Shown here one piece after another: positions 5,496 through 32,739 of a DNA stretch of 34,092 nucleotides; the stretch's first letter is position 1, and each line of letters starts with the position of its first letter. Below the pieces are notes generated by a model. The model did no database searches, had not been told where the DNA came from, and saw only the letters and a list, made by a program, of their open reading frames with translations. The stretch spans positions 1 to 34,092 of the forward strand of contig JAHYJH010000020.1 in assembly GCA_019429185.1 (NCBI GenBank). The letters run 5' to 3'. This DNA comes from Vicingaceae bacterium (GTDB lineage: Bacteria > Bacteroidota > Bacteroidia > Flavobacteriales_E > Vicingaceae). Made by a program: the position numbers and the translations under genes.

Positions 5496-5591
5496 TTGGC
5501 TAAATTACAATTTATTTTAATTTGTATCTCATTTTGTCCCCATTGTCCTTAGGCTAAAGTTAAGGTATGAGTTCCCAACACTCTTTGCTTA

Positions 5592-5704
5592 GGGTCTGTA
5601 ATGAAATAAACTATACATTTAGCGTTGCTATGTCTGTGTTTTTCGTCTTATTAGCAAACAAAATAACTTCGCCTATTCTGTACACTTTATTTCATTACAG
5701 ACCC
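5592..5704. mobile_element. 113-bp MITE with perfect terminal inverted repeats and TTA duplication (copy A)
   Basis: The left end at 5592-5610 and right end at 5686-5704 are exact inverted repeats of 19 bp starting GGGTCTGTAATGAAATAA. Similarity runs on to 26 bp with 24 matches. The element is flanked by TTA at 5589-5591 and TTA at 5705-5707, a 3-bp target duplication. It encodes nothing plausible. Three-base TNA duplications are typical of IS5-family groups, so it is probably a non-autonomous derivative of such an element. Related ends occur at 28986 and 30305. Confidence 0.85.
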
Positions 5705-5707
5705 TTA

Positions 5708-5925
5708 CTTCAAACTACCTGTAGTTGGGGGGTAATTTCGATTCCGTCCCGATAGTTCCGATAGCTATCGGAATCGGGAACTATCGGAACGAACTAAAAA
5801 ATTGTAAATTACTGGTGCAGGTTGCACGTTAGCAAATGTATTAATTTTTTATTTACCACAAGCGGGACACTTGCGGCAGCGGGGGAGGAAAAAAAATAAT
5901 TTTTAAACGTAGTTTCAGTTAGATG
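5708..5925. repeat. Gene-free stretch with clustered palindromic repeats
   Basis: No gene is seen here. The 18-bp palindrome TTCCGATAGCTATCGGAA lies at 5756-5773 inside a larger nested set of CCGATAG/CTATCGG arms (about 5747-5787). GTGCA/TGCAC forms a small hairpin at 5815-5827. A GC-rich repeat, CCACAAG...CTTGCGG, sits at 5856-5876 followed by a G-run. GC-rich islands in AT-rich surroundings fit interspersed repeat insertions. Confidence 0.6.
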
Positions 5926-10548: not shown

Positions 10549-13500
10549 TTATCTAATTATGGCTATTTCGCCTTGTAATGTAACTTTTTCATCTGCAATG
10601 GTTACACCGGTAAACACATATACATAAGATCCTGAAGGTTGACTACTTCCTTTAAAAGAACCATCCCAACCATCTGCCTGGTCATCAGATATAAATATTT
10701 CTTGTCCCCACTCATTGTAAACCGTTAATTGATACGATTTAAAAGGACCTCCTAATATGCTGAACACATCATTTATTCCGTCTCCATTTGGTGAAAATGC
10801 TGTAGGAACAACTACGGGTTTCACATCATCTCCAATAATTTCAAAGTCATACGTTATAGTATCAACACAACCCGCTGCATTGGTCGCAATCAAAGTAACT
10901 GTAAACAATCCATTTGCTCCATAACTATAACTTGGGTTGGAAAGTATTGAGGTATCCCCATTATTCCCAAAATCCCAAAAATAGGTTGTTGCATTTTGAC
11001 TTTGATTCATAAAATCAATAACCTGATTAATGTTAAACTGACCTCCCTGAGGTGTAAAATCAGCAATAGGAAGTGGACTAATTGTTAATGTTATGGTATC
11101 GGTAACTGCATCACACAAGCCATTGTTGGTAGTTGTTAATGCTATCATTACTGTTCCATTAACTATATCTCCCGCTGATGGAATATACTGAGCATTCAAT
11201 GTAAAATTATCTGGAACAAAAGTTCCTGTTCCATCGGTTGTCCATTCTCCACCACCCGCATTAGTAATACCTCCATTTAATGATACATTTTCTCCTTCAC
11301 AAATCGTGATATTATTTCCGGCATCTGCAATTGGTGCAGGATCAATGGTAATAACAATGGTATCAGCGGCAGGAACACAAGAATTAATCGCTTCTAAAAC
11401 TAAAACAATAAAACCATTAGAAATATCTGAAGAATCTATCTGATAACTTGCATTCAAATCATTTGCTGATGGAGTAAACATTCCATTTCCAGAGCTAGAC
11501 CATACTCCTGCTCCAGTACCTCCGAACACTTGTCCATTAAGTTGGATAGAGTCATTGTTTGCACAAATAGTAGTATCGTTTCCTGCAAAAACAGTTGCTG
11601 GAGAAGAAAGGAATACTTCAACAGTATCATAAACAGCTAAACATCCTCCATTATTGGTGCTTTCAAGAATTAAGATTACACTACCATTAATTGAATCTTG
11701 TTGACTAAATGTATAAGATGCATTGAGTGTTAAACTATCTGGAGAGAATGTTCCTGTTCCCATAGTAGTCCAAGCTCCAGTTGATGAACCACCAGTAACA
11801 GAACCATTTAAAGTTGTTGTTAATGTGCCATTACAAATTAAAATATCCGAACCAGCATCTACTACAGGTGCTGGAGTTATGGTAATAACAATAGAGTCTA
11901 TAGCAGCACTACAAAATCCATTTTGGGTAGTAGTTAAATAAATAGTTACAGAGCCATTAGCAATATCATTTGTACCTGCATTATAGGTAACATTTGCACT
12001 TATAGTATCAGGAGTAAATGTGCCATCTCCAGAGGTTGACCAAACCATTCCTCCTGCATCGGCTATACTTCCTGATAAATCAACTTGTGCATTATTTGCA
12101 CATACTGAAGTATCTACTCCTGCATCTGCAAAAGGAGCAGGTAAAATTTCAATAGTGTCTGTATATGTTGCTGCTGCACAACCTCCAGAAGCTACTATAT
12201 CATTAGTTACGGCATAAACACCTGGAGAACTTGCTGATAGGTTGATTTGACCTGTGCTTGTATTTATGAAAACCAAACCTGCTGGTAAGGCACTAAATAC
12301 TCCTGCACTCGACCCAGGTGAAAATGTTGGTGTTGGATTACTTCCTGATGTACAAAAAGGATCATTGTATGAGAAAGTTGCATCAGGTGCATTAGTAATA
12401 GTAACTGTAAATGTTGCACTATCAGAACACACTCCATCTGTAGTAAAAATAACCGTATAAGTTCCCAATGTTGTTAACGCAACATCTATTTCACCTGTTA
12501 GTGAATCAACAAACACAAGCCCTGATGGTGTTGCACTAAAAGAACCTGTTGATCCGCCTGTAATTACTGGTATTGCATTTCCTCCACTCACACAAAAAGT
12601 AGCTGATGAATAACTAAAAGAAGGATCGTCTAATGGCGTAACTGTAACTGTTACTGGTGTTCTGGTTGAACTTGTACATCCATTAACAGTAGTTTGCACA
12701 TAATAAGTTGTAGTAGTACTTAAAACAGGTGTGGTAAAACTAGCTCCAGTATTTAATAATGTGCCGCCACTTGAAGCACTATACCACTCATACGTTCCTC
12801 CTGGAGCTGTTGCTATTAATGTAGTAGAAGTTCCTTCACAAATAGTATCATTGTTTGCTGTTGGAGCTGCTGGTATAGGATTAATAGTAATTACAACTGT
12901 ATCACTAACAGCAGAACAGGGTCCTGCTGGGTCATCAGTAGTTAAAATTAATGTTACAACAGTTTCAGATGGATCAGGGGTATATGTTGCCGTAGGTGTT
13001 GAATTATTGGGCGAAAATGTCCCTAAGCCTCCACTCCATGTTCCCGATGAAGCTGTTCCTCCTATTGATCCTGAAAGTGGTGCGTTATCTCCAAAACAAA
13101 TACTCATATCAGCACCAGCATTAACTGTAGGGGCTATATCAATGGTAAAAGTTGTAGAGTGAGTTGCCGAAGCACATCCTCCTGCAGCTGCAATAAAATT
13201 AGTAACTGTATATGTTCCCGGTGTAGATGTTGTTATATCAATTTCTCCTGTAGCAGTATTTACAAATACAAGCCCTGTTGGAGATGCACTAAATACACCT
13301 GCACTTGCCCCTGGTGTAAATGAAGGAAATTCATTTGAAGCACCCTGACAAACTGGAGTTGTATAAGAAAAGGTAGCATCAAATCCATTCGTTATAGTTA
13401 TATTAACCGAATCTGTTGTAGGACAAGTTCCATTAGTTGTAAAACTTACCGTATATGTTCCCAATGCACTTGCTCCCAAATTAATTTCTCCAGTAGCTGA

Positions 13501-16500
13501 ATTTACAAAAACTAAACCTGCTGGTGTTGCTGAAAAAGCTCCTGTAGATCCTCCAGTAATGTTAGGAACAGGGTTTGTTCCAGTAGCACAATAAGTTCCA
13601 GATGAATAAGTAAATGATGGGTCGTCTTGATTAAAAGTAATTATTACCGTATCTGATGCTGCTGTACAAACTCCTCCTGGACTATTTGTAGTGAGTATTA
13701 AAGACAATGAGCCTGCTAAATATTCTCCAGCTGTTGGGGTATATGTAGCATTAACCGTAGTATTATTTGGATTAAAAGTACCTGCACCACCAGACCAACT
13801 TGCACTAGTAGCAATTCCTCCAAAAGAACCATTTAATGAAACCAAATCACCTACGCAAATAGTAGTATCATTACCTGCATTTACTATTGCTGCCTCTTCT
13901 ATTACAACTGTAGTTGAGTGTGAAGCTGATGCACACCCTCCTGATGCAGCTATAAAATTAGTTATCGTATAAGTTCCAAATGCACTAGTTAATAAATCAA
14001 TTTCACCTGTGCTTGTATTTACAAAATTTAAACCCACAGGTGTTGCACTAAACACTCCTGCACTTGATCCAACAGGGAAATTAGGCAACGGATTTGTTAT
14101 AAACTGACAAAAAGGATCATTATATGAGAATGTTGCATCTGGTGCGGTAGTAATAGTTACCGATACAGATGAGGACATTGGGCAAGTTCCATTAGTAGTA
14201 TAAGTAACTGTATAAGTTCCTAAAGTGCTAGAAGACACTGTAATTTCTCCTGTACTTGGATTTATTGTTAACCCTGAAGGAGTTGAAGAAAAAGTTCCTC
14301 CAGGTGTTCCTGTAATAGTTGGAGTAGGATTTGTTCCTGTGATACAAAATGTACCTGATGAATAAGAAAAAGAAGGATCATCATTTGGAATAACTGTAAC
14401 TGTTACTGAAGTTCTTGGACTAGTACAACCTCCAACTGTTGTTTGTACATAATAAGTAGTTGTAGTTATTAAAATAGGTGTTGTGTATGAAGCTCCTGTA
14501 TTTAATAATGTTCCACCGGTAGGTGCATTATACCATCTGTAAGTTGGTCCAGGTGCAGTGGCTGTTAATGTTGCTGTATTTCCCTCACAAATGGTAACTC
14601 CATTTACTGTCGGAGCTGCTGGTATTGGGTTTACAGTAACTGTAACAGTAGTCATAGCACTTGTACATCCATTTACCGTTGTTTGCACATAATAAGAAGT
14701 TGTAGCTGTTAATACTGGTGTTGTATAAGTAGCTCCTGTATTTACAAGATTTCCTCCTGTAGGTGCATCATACCATTCATAAGTTCCTCCGGGAGAAGTA
14801 GCTGTTAATGTTGCTGTATTTCCATCACAAATAGTGGCATTACCTACAATTGGAGCCGTAGGTATAGGATTTACAACTACAATTACCATAGTTCTAACAC
14901 TTGGACAACCTAAAATGGTTGTTTGAACATAAAAAGTATCGCTAACTGTTAAAGCTATAGTAGTATAACTAGCCCCTGTAAATAATAATGTTCCTCCAAC
15001 AGCAGCATCATACCATTCATACGTTCCACCTGGAGCTGTAGCAAAAAGTGTAGTCGTTTCTCCTGCACAAATAGTATCTCCACTTACAGTAGGAGCAACA
15101 GGAGTTGGGTTAACGGTTACGGTTACTGTAGTTCTTGGTCCCGCACATCCATTTACCGTTGTTTGAACATAATAAGATGTTGTTGTAGTTAATATTGGTG
15201 TTGTAAAAGTAGCTCCTGTATTTACAAGATTTCCACCTGTAGGAGCATCATACCATTCATACGTTCCTCCAGGTGCTGTGGCTGTTAAAATTGTAGAACT
15301 ACCTTCACAAATAGTAGTATCATTTACAGTTGGAGCAGCTGGTAAAGGAATAATATTAATCGAAACAGTATCTACAACTGCAGCACATACATTTGCAGGA
15401 TTATCTGTGGTTAAAATTAATGTAACTATTCCTGCCGATTGCTCTGCTGCACTTGGAGTATATGTAGCATTTAATGTGTTAGCATTTGGAGCATAAGTCC
15501 CTGTACCTCCACTCCAAGTTGCAGTTGTTGCACTACCTCCAATAGTTCCATTTAAACTTAATGTTGCTCCCGAACATATATCACTATAAGTTCCAGCATT
15601 CACTATTGCAGCTTCATCTATAGTAATTGTAAAAGTAGCTGATGCTGAAGCACACCCTCCTGCTGCTGCAATAAAATTAGTTATCGTATATGTTCCAAAT
15701 GCACTAGTTGATAAATCAATTTCCCCGGTACTTGTATTTACAAATACTAACCCTACCGGAGTAGCACTAAACACCCCTGCACTTGCTCCTAGTGGGAATG
15801 AAGGTAATTCATTAGCCCCACTTTGGCATATTGGTGTATTATATGAAAAAGTTGCATCAGGAGCGTTAGTTATAGTAACACTAACTGAACTACTATCAGG
15901 ACAAGGTCCGTTTGTTGTAAAAGTAATGGTGTAAGTGTTTAATGCACTTGCCGACACATCAATAGTTCCTGTTGATGAATTAATAACTAAGCCAACTGGA
16001 GAGGAAGTAAATGTACCTCCAAAACTTCCATTTATAGTTGGTGTAGGATCTGTTCCTGTAATACAATACGTACCTGAAGAATAATTAAATGAAGCGTCAT
16101 CAGTTGGAGTAACGGTAACAATTACTGCTGTTCTTGGTCCAGAGCAACCATTAATGGTTGTTTGAACATAAAATGTATCTGTAGTAGTTAAAATGGGTGT
16201 GGTATAAGTAGCTCCTGTAAACAACAATGTTCCTCCTGTTAGTGCATTATACCATTCATACGTTCCTCCAGGAGCTGTAGCTGTTAAACTTGTTGAGTTG
16301 CCCTCACATATAGTTACACCATTAGTAGTAGGTGCCGCTGGTGTGAGATTTACAGTAACTGTTACGGCTGTTCTTGGCCCCGTACATCCAGAAACGGTAG
16401 TTTGTACATAGTAAGTAGTTGTAGCGACTAAAACTGGAGTAGTATAACTTGCTCCTGTAAATAATAAAGTTCCACCACTTGCTGCATTATACCATTGATA

Positions 16501-19500
16501 TGTACCCCCAGGAGCCGTTGCTGTTAAAGTAGCTGTATTTCCTGAACAAATTGTTGTGTCAGATACCGTTGGTGCTACAGGTGCTATGTTTACGGTAATT
16601 GTTCCTGTAGCATTCACTATTCCACAACCACCTGTTAAAGGTATGCTATAATTAAATGTTCCTGCTACTGTTGGTGTTCCACTTATCGTAATGGTGTTTC
16701 CTGCCCAAGTCGCGGTAACTCCTGTTGGTAATCCTGATGCTGCTCCTATACCTGTTGCTCCTGTAGTGGTGTGGGTTATGGGTGTTATCGCTACATTGAT
16801 ACACACTGTTGGCGATGATGATGCAACAGATACCGTGTTGTTTGGTGTTACGGTAATTGTTCCTGTAGCATTCACTGTTCCACAACCACCTGTTAAAGGT
16901 ATGCTATAATTAAATGTCCCTGCTACTGTTGGTGTTCCGCTTATTGTAATAGTGTTTCCTGCCCAAGTTGCGGTAACTCCTGCTGGTAATCCTGATGCTG
17001 CTCCTATACCTGTTGCTCCTGTAGTGGTATGGGTTATGGGCGTTATCGCTACATTGATACACACTATTGGTGATGATGATGCAACAGATACCGTGTTGTT
17101 TGGTGTTACGGTAATTGTTCCTGTAGCATTCACTGCTCCACAACCACCTGTTAAAGGTATGCTATAATTAAATGTGCCAAGTACTGTTGGTGTTCCGCTT
17201 ATCGTAATGGAATTTCCTGCCCAAGTTGCGATAACTCCTGTTGGTAATCCTGATGCTGCTCCTATACCTGTTGCTCCTGTAGTGGTGTGGGTTATGGGTG
17301 TTATTGCTACATTGATACACACTGTTGGTGTAGATGATGGTGCTGAAGCTGTATTAGGTGTGATTACTGTTATAGTTCCCGTAGCATTTACTGTTCCACA
17401 ACCACCTGTTAAAGGTATGCTATAATTAAATGTACCAAGTACTGTTGGCGTTCCACTTATTGTAATGGTGTTTCCTGCCCAAGTCGCGGTAACTCCTGCT
17501 GGTAATCCTGATGCTACTCCTATACCTGTTGCTCCTGTGGTGGTATGGGTTATGGGCGTTATTGCTGTATTAATACACACTGTTGGTGTAGATGATGGTG
17601 CTGAAACTGTATTAGGTGTGATTACTGTTATAGTTCCCGTAGCATTTACTGTTCCACAACCACCTGTTAAAGGTATGCTATAATTAAATGTACCAAGTAC
17701 TGTTGGCGTTCCACTTATCGTAATGGTGTTTCCTGCCCAAGTCGCGGTAACTCCTGTTGGTAATCCTGATGCTACTCCTATACCTGTTGCTCCTGTGGTG
17801 GTATGGGTTATGGGCGTTATTGCTACATTGACACAGACTGTTGGTGATGATGATGCAACAGATACCGTATTGTTTGGAGTTACGGTAATTGTTCCCGTAG
17901 CATTCACTGTTCCACAACCACCTGTTAAAGGTATGCTATAATTAAATGTCCCTGCTACTGTTGGTGTTCCGCTTATTGTAATAGTGTTTCCTGCCCAAGT
18001 TGCGGTAACTCCTGTTGGTAATCCTGATGCTACTCCTATACCTGTTGCTCCTGTAGTGGTGTGGGTTATGGGTGTTATCGCTACATTGATACACACTGTT
18101 GGCGATGATGATGCAACAGATACCGTGTTGTTTGGTGTTACGGTAATTGTTCCTGTAGCATTCACTGTTCCACAACCACCTGTTAAAGGTATGCTATAAT
18201 TAAATGTCCCTGCTACTGTTGGTGTTCCGCTTATCGTAATGGTGTTTACTGCCCAAGTTGCGGTAACTCCTGCTGGTAATCCTGATGCTGCTCCTATACC
18301 TGTTGCTCCTGTGGTAGTATGGGTTATGGGCGTTATCGCTACATTGATACACACTGTTGGTGATGATGATGCAACAGATACCGTGTTGTTTGGTGTTACG
18401 GTAACAGTAACTGCAGTTCTTGAACTTGTACAACCAGATACTGTGGTTTGTACATAATAAGTAGTTGTTGCAACTAAAACTGGAGTAGTATAACTTGATC
18501 CAGTAAATAATAAAGTTCCACCACTTGCTGCATTATACCATTCGTAAGTACCACCTGGAGCTGTGGCAGTTATTGTTGCTGTTGTTCCAGTACAAATAGT
18601 AGTTCCACTAGCTGTTGGAGCCGCAGGTAATGGTGCCGACCCAACAACTATCGTGTCTGACGCTGCAGGGCAATTAGTACTATCAGTAACCGAAACTATA
18701 TATGTTCCTGGTACACTGATACTAATAGCACTCGTTATTTGTCCTCCCGGACTCCATAAATAACTATAAGGTGCACTTCCTCCTGTTATATTTGCTGTGA
18801 GTGTAATTGGATTACCTGAACAAATAGTTGCTACGGCAGGATCAATAGCAACCTCCAAACCAGGTACTAAATTTACTCTGACAGTATCACAAGAAGTTCC
18901 CGAAGCACAACCTGTTGGTATACCACATACCTGATAATCAATAAATGCGGGATACCCTACTTGTGGAGTAACATAAGTAGTATCACAAGCTGAAGTACAA
19001 TTCAAATAAGAATTATATGTTCCAGCAGCACCTGGTGCTATTGAATTCCATGTTATTGATGATTGAACCAAACCTTCTACATACAATTCTCCAACACAAT
19101 TTGAATTGATGGTAATATCTGGAGCGGCTGAAAAAGTTCTTGATGAAGATATAGTATATGTAGGAGAGTCTCCTCCACTTTTACAAAAAACAATACAAAA
19201 ACTGGTCATTCCAGTTACACAAAGTGGAGTTCCTAAAGATGTAGGTAGTCCACAATTTACCTGATAAAAAGCTCCACCTGGAGGTGCAGGGTTTGCAACA
19301 TTAAAACTTACTTCATTTGCCCCTGGATTTATAGTAACATCGAATCGAATACAATTAGTACCTGTAGCTCCACAACACAACCCACTTCGGATACTGGTCA
19401 TCGAAAATGTAGTATCAGGATTGGCTGATAAATTAACAGGAACTGTTGTTGGTGATTCACAGGGAGTACATTGTGAATAAACACTTAACCCACTAAATAG

Positions 19501-19545
19501 TCCTAAAAAAATTAGAAAACTAGCAACGATGTATTTTTTAACCAT
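10549..19545 (-). CDS. Giant Ig-like surface adhesin with T9SS type B C-terminal domain (SprB-like)
   Basis: 2998 residues. Signal peptide 1-25. Residues 384-985 are seven tandem 86-residue repeats with two Cys each, resembling putative Ig (He_PIG) domains ([11 protein letters not shown]...[12 protein letters not shown]). Around and after them are eight ~80-residue Ig-like units with [11 protein letters not shown] and YYVQTTV signatures, then four pairs of units starting PSFSYSSGT and DATFSYN, then Cys-containing repeats with DTTIC/LNG motifs. A PKD domain lies at about 2828-2905 and the CHU_C domain at about 2913-2998 ([13 protein letters not shown], ending IAIIR). It should be exported by T9SS and displayed on the surface for adhesion or gliding. 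A PorP/SprF gene follows, as sprF follows sprB. No catalytic domain is recognised. Confidence 0.9.
16591..18396 (-). repeat. Seven tandem 258-bp coding repeats in the adhesin gene
   Basis: Seven in-frame copies of exactly 258 bp (86 codons) run from 18396 down to 16591, nearly identical in DNA. Marker changes divide them: copies 1, 2, 6 and 7 have TVAGTF, copies 3-5 have TVLGTF, and copies 4 and 5 also start ITPNT with SAPSST instead of TPNNT with SVASSS. The pattern suggests block duplication or gene conversion. Copy number is likely variable and hard to assemble with short reads. Confidence 0.95.
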
Positions 19546-28659: not shown

Positions 28660-28824
28660 TAAAACTGCCTATTGTTTAAAACCCTAATCATTTTTACCGA
28701 AACTAAATAACTTTTCTGAAAATGAATGTGATTTAGTTATCGAAAAAAATTAGAAATTGTAAATTTCTGTTGTTATAGGATTCGAGAAAACCTAACAGGT
28801 TTTTGAAACCTGTTAGGTTTAGCG
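28660..28824. repeat. Gene-free spacer after narI with a perfect 15-bp hairpin
   Basis: No gene is seen. A small hairpin AGAAATT/AATTTCT lies at 28752-28768. AAACCTAACAGGTTT (28788-28802) is the perfect inverse of 28806-28820 around a TTG loop. The hairpin ends five bases before the stop of the truncated copper-ATPase remnant, and the intact copper ATPase gene has a weaker related hairpin at the same place (30510-30524). It is a repeat, possibly a terminator, though the T-run is only three bases. Confidence 0.6.
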
Positions 28825-28985
28825 TTACTTCAACTTTTTAATCTTTAATCGTATAGAATTTACAACAACAATTACATCTGAGAAAGCCATTGCCAAAGCT
28901 GCTATCATAGGGTTTAAAAAACCAAGTGCAGCCATTGGAATTGTTAATACGTTTTAGAGAAAGACCCATTTTTAATGTTTTGTTA
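28825..28985 (-). pseudogene. 3' fragment of a duplicated copper P-type ATPase gene
   Basis: On the minus strand from 28950 to 28825 an uninterrupted frame encodes 41 residues including MAALGFLNPMIAALAMAFSD and ending IRLKIKKLK then TAA. It matches the last 41 residues of the intact ATPase at 30530-32647 with few changes. Similarity continues upstream through a TAA replacing the Tyr codon, a Trp codon (28966-28968) and a shared TTTTG, then stops at TTA (28983-28985), where a transposon-type end begins. The rest of the gene (about 660 codons) is gone. It is a non-functional relic. Confidence 0.88.
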
Positions 28986-29011
28986 GGGTCTGCAATGAAA
29001 TAAATTTGAAA
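28986..29011. mobile_element. Transposon-type end (copy C) abutting the ATPase remnant
   Basis: GGGTCTGCAATGAAATAAA matches the terminal repeat of the 113-bp MITE (5592-5610) with one change and is preceded by TTA (28983-28985), the target trinucleotide seen for copy A. No perfect inverted partner follows. The nearest inverted end with a TTA after it is at 30450-30475, so C could be the left end of a 1490-bp unit containing the AAA ATPase gene. Confidence 0.7.
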
Positions 29012-29072: not shown

Positions 29073-30248
29073 ATGTCCGAATTAAAAAACGATTTTCTAA
29101 AAAGGCAGCTACAAGTCAAATTAGAGCGACTTATAGATTTATACAGTGTTATAGTAGTTACCGGACCGAGACAATCTGGAAAAACGACTTTGTGTAAAAA
29201 GCAATTTTCAGCATACCATTATGTTAACTTAGAAAATATAAGTACAAGAGAGCAAATACAAACTGCACCAAAAGCTTTTCTGGAACAATATTCGGAGGGA
29301 TTGATTATTGATGAAGCTCAACATTTAGTTGAATTGTTTTCATATATTCAAGTTGTTGTTGATGAAAATGAAAACGCAAAGTTTGTACTTACAGGGAGTA
29401 GTAATTTTTCGTTGATGCAAAGAATTACTCAGTCATTAGCTGGAAGAGCTGCAGTGCTTACTTTACTTCCTTTGTCATTACAAGAGTTGGGTAAAAATTT
29501 GAAAAAAGAGGATACAAATACGATTTTGCTAAATGGAGGTTACCCTGCGGTTTGGGCAAAAGGAATTCCCGTACAAGACATTAGCAGAAACTATTATAAC
29601 ACTTACATAGAAAGAGATGTTCGACAATTACTAAATGTAAAAGACATCACAAGGTTTCAAACTTTTATGAAATTATGTGCAGGAAGAATAGGAACAGAAT
29701 TTAACGCTTCAACTTTATCTAATGAAGTAGGAGTTTCTGTACCTACTATACAAGAGTGGGTTAGCGTACTAGAAGCATCATATATTTTGTTTCGATTACC
29801 TCCTTTTTTTAGAAATATAGGAAAACGATTGGTAAAATCACCCAAAATTTATTTTTACGATACCGGATTAGTTTGTTTCCTCTTAGGAATAGAGAACGAG
29901 CAGCAACTTTCTACCCATCCACTACGAGGAACAATTTTTGAAAATTTGGTGGTATTGGAATTTTTTAAAAATCGTTACAATAAAAGTAAATTACCTAATT
30001 TTTATTTTTATCGTGATAAATCACAGCATGAAGTTGATTTAATAGAAGAAAAAGGAGCAAAATTGTTTGCTTATGAAATTAAATCTGCAAAAGCATTTAC
30101 TAAAGGCTTTATTGTAGGTTTAGATTATTTAAGAAAAGTGGTTGGGAAAGATGTGATTTCTACTCAAGTAATATATGATGGAGAAAATGATATTTATAGC
30201 CCTGAAAATGGAATGGTCAATTTTAGGAATATTAGATTTAACGAATAA
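29073..30248 (+). CDS. AAA_14 ATPase with DUF4143 domain
   Basis: 391 residues. Walker A GPRQSGKT at 31-38, Walker B IIDEAQ at 78-83, LTGSSNFSL (sensor-like), and LPLSLQEL are typical of the AAA_14 family. The C-terminal DUF4143 region contains Asp322 (HEVDLI) and Glu335-x-Lys337 (YEIKSAK), a pattern compatible with a PD-(D/E)xK nuclease fold. These proteins are common, often horizontally spread, and of unknown cellular role. The gene sits alone between transposon-type ends C (28986) and B (30305-30475), next to a truncated copper-ATPase copy, which suggests it arrived with mobile DNA. Family identity is clear; function is not known and a defence role is speculation. Confidence 0.88.
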   Translation: MSELKNDFLKRQLQVKLERLIDLYSVIVVTGPRQSGKTTLCKKQFSAYHYVNLENISTREQIQTAPKAFLEQYSEGLIIDEAQHLVELFSYIQVVVDENENAKFVLTGSSNFSLMQRITQSLAGRAAVLTLLPLSLQELGKNLKKEDTNTILLNGGYPAVWAKGIPVQDISRNYYNTYIERDVRQLLNVKDITRFQTFMKLCAGRIGTEFNASTLSNEVGVSVPTIQEWVSVLEASYILFRLPPFFRNIGKRLVKSPKIYFYDTGLVCFLLGIENEQQLSTHPLRGTIFENLVVLEFFKNRYNKSKLPNFYFYRDKSQHEVDLIEEKGAKLFAYEIKSAKAFTKGFIVGLDYLRKVVGKDVISTQVIYDGENDIYSPENGMVNFRNIRFNE

Positions 30249-30304
30249 AAAATGTTCAATAACTGACAGTATTTTGCTTAACCCGAACTCGGATTTATAA
30301 CTTA

Positions 30305-30475
30305 GGGTCTGTAATGAAATAAGTTGTGCAAAAATGACACAGGTATTTTGCTCTTATACGATTTGAAATCCCGATGGCTATCAGGAGCGAATAGCACCGC
30401 TCTTTAATGTTTTTTCAAAGAAGTAGAAGAGTAAAAGAGCAAGTCAGAATGTGCAAGTTATTTCATGCCTATTCC
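30305..30475. mobile_element. 171-bp MITE-like element with TTA duplication (copy B)
   Basis: The left end GGGTCTGTAATGAAATAA is identical to copy A for 18 bases. The right end read inward is GGAATAGGCATGAAATAA: the ATGAAATAA core is at the same distance from the tip and 17 of 26 positions match. TTA flanks both sides (30302-30304 and 30476-30478). A degenerate CCCGATGGCTATCAGG palindrome lies inside. No ORF. It lies between the AAA ATPase gene and the 3' end of the copper ATPase gene. Confidence 0.65.
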
Positions 30476-30529
30476 TTAACACCACTAAAAAAATGAACTA
30501 GAGCAACCGTAACCCTTTAAGGTTTAGAG

Positions 30530-32647
30530 TCACTTCAATTTCTTTGTTTTCAGCCGTATAGAGTTCCCAACAACAATTACATCTGAGAAAGCCATTGCCA
30601 ACGCTGCTACCATAGGATTTAAAAAACCAAGTGCAGCAACAGGTATTGCCAGTACATTATAGAAAAATGCCCAGAATAAATTTTGTTTAATGGTTATTAA
30701 GGTGTGTTTACTTATCAAATACGCTTCATATACTTGAGATAAGTCTTTATCATTAAGTAAAACAATTTGTGCAGAATGAACCGCTACTTGTGTGGCTTTG
30801 CTCATAGAAATACCTACAGAAGCTTTTGTAAGTGCTGGAGCATCATTTATTCCATCGCCCACCATTACCGTTGGTGCTAGTTTTTCTAATTCATCAATTT
30901 TTGCTAATTTTTGTTCTGGAAGTTGTTCGCCATAAACCGTTTTAATATTCACTTTTGTAGCTAACTCTTCACATTTTTGCTGCACATCTCCACTTAATAA
31001 AATCGTATTTAACCCTTGTTTATTCAGTAAAGAAATGGTTTCAGGAACGTGTTGTTTCAATTCATCTTCAATATCAACCCCGGCAATAAGTTGTTGGTTT
31101 TTAAAAATGAAAATAGTGTGTTGTTTGTCTTTAGTTTGGGTTTCATCAATTCTAAAAGAACCTACTTGATAATGATTATTTTCTTTATCAAAAGCTTCTA
31201 AACCTACGCCTTTTATTTCATTTATAGTAGGAAAATCAATAAGCGTAGCATCGGGTTTTAAATAAGCTACAATAGATTGAGCAATAGGATGCGAAGAATG
31301 TTGTTCTATACTAAAAAGTATGTTTTTAAGTGCTTGTTCTTCAACAGAAGCGTATAATTTGGTTTTTTTTATGAAAAAATTTCCTGTGGTAAGCGTTCCT
31401 GTTTTGTCAAACACCATATTTTTAGCATTGGCAAATAATTCAAGTGTGCTTCCACCTTTAATCAGAATTCCTTTTTTGGCAGCCCTTCCTATTCCTACCA
31501 TTACTGCTGTTGGTGTTGCTAACCCCATGGCACAAGGACAAGAAATTACTAATACCGCTATACTTTGCATTAAGGCTTGTTGTGTACTTATATCAAAACC
31601 AAAATGAGCAATTAAAAAAGTGAGTAATGCAATAACCAACACAACAGGAACGAATATAGCACTGATTTTATCTCCCAATCGCTGAATGTTTGGTTGGTTC
31701 TGTTGGGCATTTTTTACCATTTCAATAATTTTTGAAAGGACTGTTTCGCTACCCACTTTTTCAGCTTTAAACTGCATGCTTCCATCCATCATTACTGTTC
31801 CTCCAATCACTTTGGAGCCTATTTCTTTCTCTACAGGCGTACTTTCTCCAGAAATCATCGATTCATCAATAGTTGCATTTCCTTTACTAATTTCACCATC
31901 AACAGCTATTCTATCTCCACTATTTACCTGAATAATATCTCCTACATTAATTTCATCATAACCTACAACAATTGTGGATCCATCGGGCATTATTTTTTTG
32001 GCTTCACTTTGTTGTATCTGACTTAATTCTTTAATGGCAGTAGTGGTTTGGTTTACCGAACGATGTTCCAATACATTTCCCAACAATACTAAGGTAATGA
32101 TGGTTGCAGCAGTTTCAAAAAACAAATAATTATGTGCTTCGTGTGTGCCGTGGTAGAGATAAATCCCAACAATACTATAAACAAAAGCAGCTGTTGAACC
32201 TATGGTAATCAACACGTCCATATTAGGAACGCCAGTTTTTAGTGAACCCCAAGCACTTTTTCCAAAATGAAAAAATCCAATAAAAAAAACAGGAATACAC
32301 AATGCTAATTGCACCCAACCATTATTCAACATATTGTCGTGTGGCATAAACATGTGTAAAAACAGAGGAATGGAAAAAATTAACGAAATGTAAAATTTTT
32401 TCTCAATGGATGATAATCCTTTTTGCTCTTTAGGAGTGTCAATTACTTTATAACCCAATTGGTTGATGCTATCAATAATTTCTTGCGTTTGGAGTTTGGT
32501 ATTGCCATCATAAGTAACCTCGCCTGTGGAGAAGCTTACATTTACGTTTTCTAATCCTTTTTTAACTAACTGTTTTTTAATGCCTAATGCACAATTGGCA
32601 CAGGTCATTCCTTCTACATTTAGGGTAATATTTTTTGTATTGCTCAT
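30530..32647 (-). CDS. copA: Copper-transporting P1B-type ATPase
   Basis: 705 residues from the ATG at 32645-32647; the upstream TTG at 32648-32650 would add one residue and is not needed. One N-terminal metal-binding domain has GMTCANC (Cys16, Cys19). Then come transmembrane helices, the actuator GES motif, the metal-channel Cys370-Pro-Cys372, the phosphorylated Asp414 in DKTGTLT, and GDGINDAP before the last helix pair. CPC with this layout indicates Cu(I) export from the cytoplasm, or copper delivery to haem-copper oxidases in the FixI/CtpA subtype; the sequence alone does not decide. TAATTTTG on the minus strand (32661-32654) could be a -7 box, giving an almost leaderless mRNA. A duplicated 3' end is at 28825-28985. 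Confidence 0.93.
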   Translation of the reverse strand: MSNTKNITLNVEGMTCANCALGIKKQLVKKGLENVNVSFSTGEVTYDGNTKLQTQEIIDSINQLGYKVIDTPKEQKGLSSIEKKFYISLIFSIPLFLHMFMPHDNMLNNGWVQLALCIPVFFIGFFHFGKSAWGSLKTGVPNMDVLITIGSTAAFVYSIVGIYLYHGTHEAHNYLFFETAATIITLVLLGNVLEHRSVNQTTTAIKELSQIQQSEAKKIMPDGSTIVVGYDEINVGDIIQVNSGDRIAVDGEISKGNATIDESMISGESTPVEKEIGSKVIGGTVMMDGSMQFKAEKVGSETVLSKIIEMVKNAQQNQPNIQRLGDKISAIFVPVVLVIALLTFLIAHFGFDISTQQALMQSIAVLVISCPCAMGLATPTAVMVGIGRAAKKGILIKGGSTLELFANAKNMVFDKTGTLTTGNFFIKKTKLYASVEEQALKNILFSIEQHSSHPIAQSIVAYLKPDATLIDFPTINEIKGVGLEAFDKENNHYQVGSFRIDETQTKDKQHTIFIFKNQQLIAGVDIEDELKQHVPETISLLNKQGLNTILLSGDVQQKCEELATKVNIKTVYGEQLPEQKLAKIDELEKLAPTVMVGDGINDAPALTKASVGISMSKATQVAVHSAQIVLLNDKDLSQVYEAYLISKHTLITIKQNLFWAFFYNVLAIPVAALGFLNPMVAALAMAFSDVIVVGNSIRLKTKKLK

Positions 32648-32739
32648 CAACTACAAAATTAAGAAAAAGCAGGTGCTACTTATTTTTTAAGATGAAAAAT
32701 AAAAAATAGTAGTAGAATTATTTTGTGTAAAAAAAAAAG

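Follow-up and report, generated by a model that had tools for sequence, protein, structure and literature searches.

A MITE is usually regarded as the product of a recent internal deletion in a single local IS. Some groups of the IS5 family and of PIF/Harbinger produce 3-bp duplications of the TNA type, and IS1031-like or PIF/Harbinger-like enzymes leave TNA or TTA duplications too. Duplications of 3 bp are also produced by both ISAzo13 and eukaryotic Zator (PMC10045372), which have related transposase families (PMC10045372, PMC5718144). Among bacterial MITEs, MITEAba12 is short and gene-less, is present in many copies with IS-type duplications, resembles its IS in the ends only and is described as prevalent in one family, the Moraxellaceae (PMC6382973).

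Herein, we analysed a stretch of 34,092 nucleotides from a Vicingaceae bacterium (the window), which contains a MITE of 113 bp. This MITE likewise has no gene, occurs in many copies and has inverted ends shared with an IS; it differs from MITEAba12, which has 9-bp duplications and the ends GGCTTTGTTGCACAAA (PMC6382973), and its architecture spans phyla. The likeness to Zator rests on the transposase family and the duplication length, whereas Zator is eukaryotic and autonomous. With the ISAzo13 family, the MITE has in common the end motif GGNNYTGTNNNNAAATAA, the duplication of TTA/TAA and, as in several members of that family, an ACA motif immediately internal to the end. It differs from an ISAzo13 IS in having no transposase gene, in its length (113-158 bp instead of approximately 1.3 kb) and in a hairpin core that is absent from the IS loci searched. 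We consider it a non-autonomous MITE of ISAzo13 type that would be served in trans by a putative ISAzo13-family DDE transposase; judged from sequence, we give this reading a probability of about 0.85.

Structure of the element and its surroundings in the window

The original prediction described a MITE with 19-bp perfect inverted ends, a length of 113 bp and TTA on both sides, and these properties, with the coordinates 5589-5707, proved exact; its printed 18-mer end gains one further A to reach 19 bp. The perfect ends sit within 27-nt arms that are 93% complementary. The interior is non-coding, and a divergent gene pair flanks the element, which is a MITE without a gene: short, bounded by terminal inverted repeats and represented by many dispersed copies with target duplications. 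The window copy equals a 158-bp consensus from which 45 bp, lying between two TAGC repeats, are missing (Table 1). At ≤3 mismatches, the 18-bp end occurs four times in the window, compared with 0.03 expected.

Table 1. Parts of the MITE family located in the window
Feature	Position	Strand	Basis
MITE, 113 bp, 158-bp form with an internal deletion	5592-5704		covariance-model match, 90.6 bits, E 4e-17
Target-site duplication TTA, left	5589-5591		seen in sequence; consensus C-TTA-G (78 copies)
Target-site duplication TTA, right	5705-5707		seen in sequence
Left terminal inverted repeat GGGTCTGTAATGAAATAAA, ISAzo13-type end	5592-5610	+	sequence and ISAzo13 matrix
Right terminal inverted repeat	5686-5704	-	sequence and ISAzo13 matrix
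TAGC junction, site of 45-bp loss relative to the 158-bp form	5620-5623		comparison with 158-bp consensus
Solitary MITE end GGGTCTGCAATGAAATAA, TTA before it, no partner end recognised	28986-29003	+	end search, covariance model, matrix
Second MITE of this family, 171 bp and diverged, TTA at 30302-30304 and 30476-30478	30305-30475	-	full-length covariance-model match, 78 bits, E 2e-14

Other features of the window were also recorded. Positions 28824-28970, near the solitary end, resemble a stray 3' end of the copper-ATPase-like gene at 30530-32650, and an ATPase gene (29073-30248) adjoins this fragment. Palindromes around CCGATAGCTATCGG / CCGATAATTATCGG lie at 5750-5800 and at two further loci (L079 and L101), and they recur in the genome and in a congener. 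The ORF at 10549-19545 encodes a repetitive, surface-protein-like product of 2998 aa with near-identical repeats.

Copies in the genome and recent amplification

The genome to which the window belongs is a 96%-complete draft of 3.66 Mb in 232 contigs. A BLAST search of the element against it returned 145 matching pieces, and the search for further copies of the ends that had been proposed with the original prediction gave 106 matches to the 18-bp end at ≤3 mismatches, compared with 3 for a reversed-pattern control. Both boundaries could be set for at least 34 assembled copies, two of which are diverged cousins that carry different end variants; most are 158 bp and the others 70-233 bp, and many further copies lie at contig ends. 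Many contigs stop approximately 105-127 bp inside a MITE copy, as is expected because assemblers behave in this way at repeats. In 30 of the 34 copies the 3-bp flanks match; most of these are TTA or TAA, with one CTA and one ATA. Collectively, the element is a true MITE with a TTA/TAA duplication and ISAzo13-type ends, and it has been amplified recently.

The recent movement that had been predicted from the perfect ends was supported. The mean identity among twenty-two 158-bp copies is 98.1%, and the end of this GGGTCTG subfamily is absent at ≤1 mismatch from five congeners, except for one GGTTCTG variant in one of them (G005). An older GGAATTG-type end lies at the same place in the species itself and in two congeners. 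Given the 98% identity of the copies and the near-absence of their end from the five congeners, the GGGTCTG subfamily was amplified recently in this species.

Insertion left clear traces. Over all loci, the duplications in 78 copies, which were selected for matching duplications, are TTA in 38, TAA in 38 and other in 2; the base beside the duplication is C on one side in 64% and G on the other in 63%, giving C-TTA-G as the preferred target. Paralogous empty sites with a single TTA or TAA were found for three copies (C11:12904-13061, C81:9884-10041 and one Draconibacterium copy). The match to the empty site over 50 bp is identical or 98%, and longer flanks match at 88-97%, some with gaps.

Two kinds of larger arrangement were also seen. 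On one contig of the genome (C104:38576-47832; L062/L063), approximately 9.2 kb with a type I restriction hsdR-like gene lies between two inward-facing MITE-derived ends of 24 and 45 bp, whose flanks, TTA and TAA, mismatch as a duplication; this segment is possibly a MITE-bounded passenger unit. In five loci (L079, L080, L076, L088 and L089), copies of 196-233 bp contain inserted extra hairpin modules of the form CTCGCTCA-stem-CCACTGG-stem'-GCCGTG, with differing stems, which are apparently a nested palindromic repeat.

Relationship of the ends to ISAzo13 and IS5 elements

A scan of GTDB genomes with the query TWAGGRNYTGTAAHGAAATAA returned at least 103 stretches from many phyla. The solitary ends among them were considered as ends of larger IS, and of the 81 ORFs lying inside such ends only one, in L203, is a transposase. 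Its frame opens directly inside TAA-GGATTTGTAACGAAATAA and belongs to the ISAzo13 family (PF07592, E 2e-134; NF033519). In an Ignavibacteriales MAG, a separate 1.1-kb segment flanked by two MITE-type ends (L164:5900-7010) was discarded as an IS; inspection by eye showed a radical-SAM-like gene and no transposase.

ISAzo13 elements themselves were then compared, their boundaries being placed where the sequence resembled the end motif, with matching duplications given a bonus. Ten intact elements (L290, L295, L320, L321, L324, L326, L328, L331, L336 and L337) have paired ends of GGNNYTGTNNNNAAATAA or close to it and TTA/TTA or TAA/TAA duplications; in the rest of the examined set, either a clear duplication or recognised ends were missing. 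The closest, L326, whose host shares its class with the window organism, is 1279 bp long, with identical 18-bp ends GTATCTGTAACGAAATAA and a TAA duplication. Its 412-aa transposase (NF033519, E 2.5e-169) shares 55% identity with that of L203, and its inner bases TATGTACATTTG resemble ACTATACATTTAG of the MITE. When a matrix made solely from these 20 ISAzo13 ends was run over the window, the four strong MITE ends came out on top (19.4, 19.4, 19.4 and 18.7), with the next score at 12.7. From the ends and the target, we infer that an ISAzo13 transposase would mobilise the MITE in trans.

The original prediction had attributed the TTA duplication to an IS5-type enzyme, with which the duplication and the GG-rich ends are compatible. 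In addition, an IS5/IS1182-like element in a congener (L134) has the ends TTA-GGGTTTGCTGAAAAAC, which score 12.8 with the ISAzo13 matrix. However, the IS5-like ends found do not match the inner end AATGAAATAA, whereas ISAzo13 ends match through AAATAA, and the sole transposase found directly inside an exact end is that of L203. PF13586 is absent from the genome, six of the nine MITE-bearing genomes tested lack it as well, and no IS5 transposase with MITE ends was found in this or related genomes. We therefore regard an IS5-family MITE as highly unlikely.

The expectation of an active transposase elsewhere in the genome was not supported either. The 96%-complete draft contains no PF07592 gene, and its six matches to PF01609, tried as another possible parent, are not bounded by MITE ends. 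PF07592 is also absent from the genus and the family; it was found in 2 of 199, both related only at the level of class. The mobilising enzyme may either have been lost from the genome or be unassembled, and its absence from the assembly is explicable because multicopy IS easily drop out of draft metagenome bins. A MITE need not share its genome with a cognate transposase and may persist after its source is gone. A parent IS would carry the MITE end GGGTCTGTAATGAAATAA; no ISAzo13 element among those examined has the exact AATG version of the end, and because ISAzo13 ends vary, the MITE was not traced to one specific ISAzo13 parent. PF07592 is present in 13 of 24 MITE-bearing genomes from several phyla vs 17 of 395 Bacteroidota, an uncontrolled comparison in which the phyla differ.

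A hairpin core shared across phyla

Among the matches listed, paired ends mark elements of strikingly constant length, mostly 155-161 bp, with further classes of 179-180 and 196-199 bp, and the hosts include Bacteroidota, Lachnospiraceae and other Clostridia, Lentisphaeria, Phycisphaerae, Desulfobacterota (Desulfobulbus), Campylobacteraceae, a gammaproteobacterial MAG, SAR324 and Omnitrophota, although most cross-phylum records are MAGs and single ones may be misbinned. Copies in the cyanobacterium Stenomitos are shorter (125-141 bp).

Nineteen divergent copies were alignable end to end. In a structure drawn from the window organism's own copy, 84.5% of cells pair vs ≤49.8% in slid controls; the tested structure therefore leans towards that copy, but the slid controls are far lower. 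In the central hairpin, both sides had changed in a compensatory manner at 16 of 17 interior pairs, and the interior covariation score was 0.472 (slid controls, ≤0.173; shuffled, ≤0.217). An RNA consensus fold of the plain alignment recovered the outer 8 bp only. A covariance model built from these copies finds others outside its training set, such as those in SAR324 (L207), Lentisphaeria (L166), Eubacterium (L249) and Omnitrophota (L248), and has no match in the ISAzo13 elements searched.

Covariation of interior stems across phyla is what a cellular function of the core (a regulatory RNA, a terminator or a protein site), with incidental ends, might produce. Against this stand the insertion duplications and empty sites, the lack of an Rfam match for the element or hairpin at the gathering score, and the positions of the copies: 23 of 24 testable copies sit outside long ORFs, and the genes flanking 24 copies are near random in orientation (5 convergent, 5 divergent and 14 tandem). 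A cellular function is thus very improbable.

A second alternative, which is compatible with an ISAzo13 MITE, holds that the core is unselected and that template switching homogenised the arms of the inverted repeat, leaving compensatory changes without function. The correction of quasi-palindromes is an established mutational process, and several cores folded weakly by themselves; compared with shuffles, several did far better and others did not. Yet the internal loops that separate the stems retain unpaired letters that are conserved in part (many copies have GCGTTG and CCTTG), and the length holds near 158 bp across phyla, which homogenisation by itself would not predict. We treat this alternative as a serious one, short of probable. 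Equally tentative is the view that a single non-autonomous lineage, with a selected, folded body of approximately 158 bp, might have endured and spread across phyla by borrowing ISAzo13 transposases, its core aiding transposition or host tolerance.

Discussion

In the mechanism that we propose for the ISAzo13-type MITE, a DDE transposase of the ISAzo13 family, acting in trans, would bind the MITE ends over approximately 18-30 bp and insert the element at CTTAG/CTAAG, duplicating TTA/TAA. The 158-bp form was amplified recently in this species, and the window copy lost its 45 bp later, probably by slippage between the TAGC repeats. The interior is a conserved nested hairpin common to similar MITEs of many phyla, with no recognisable IS-gene remnant, which suggests a non-autonomous lineage of its own. 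Such a family may have spread with the help of any ISAzo13 enzyme able to recognise its ends.

The MITE end strings were absent from the mobile-DNA literature searched, and a limited search of literature naming ISAzo13 returned no report of such MITEs, which are hereby linked to that family. Given a common length, common ends and a covarying core that is found in MITEs of distant phyla but not in the IS searched, the existence of an old non-autonomous lineage in its own right becomes testable, as does the role that the folded body may have in transposition.
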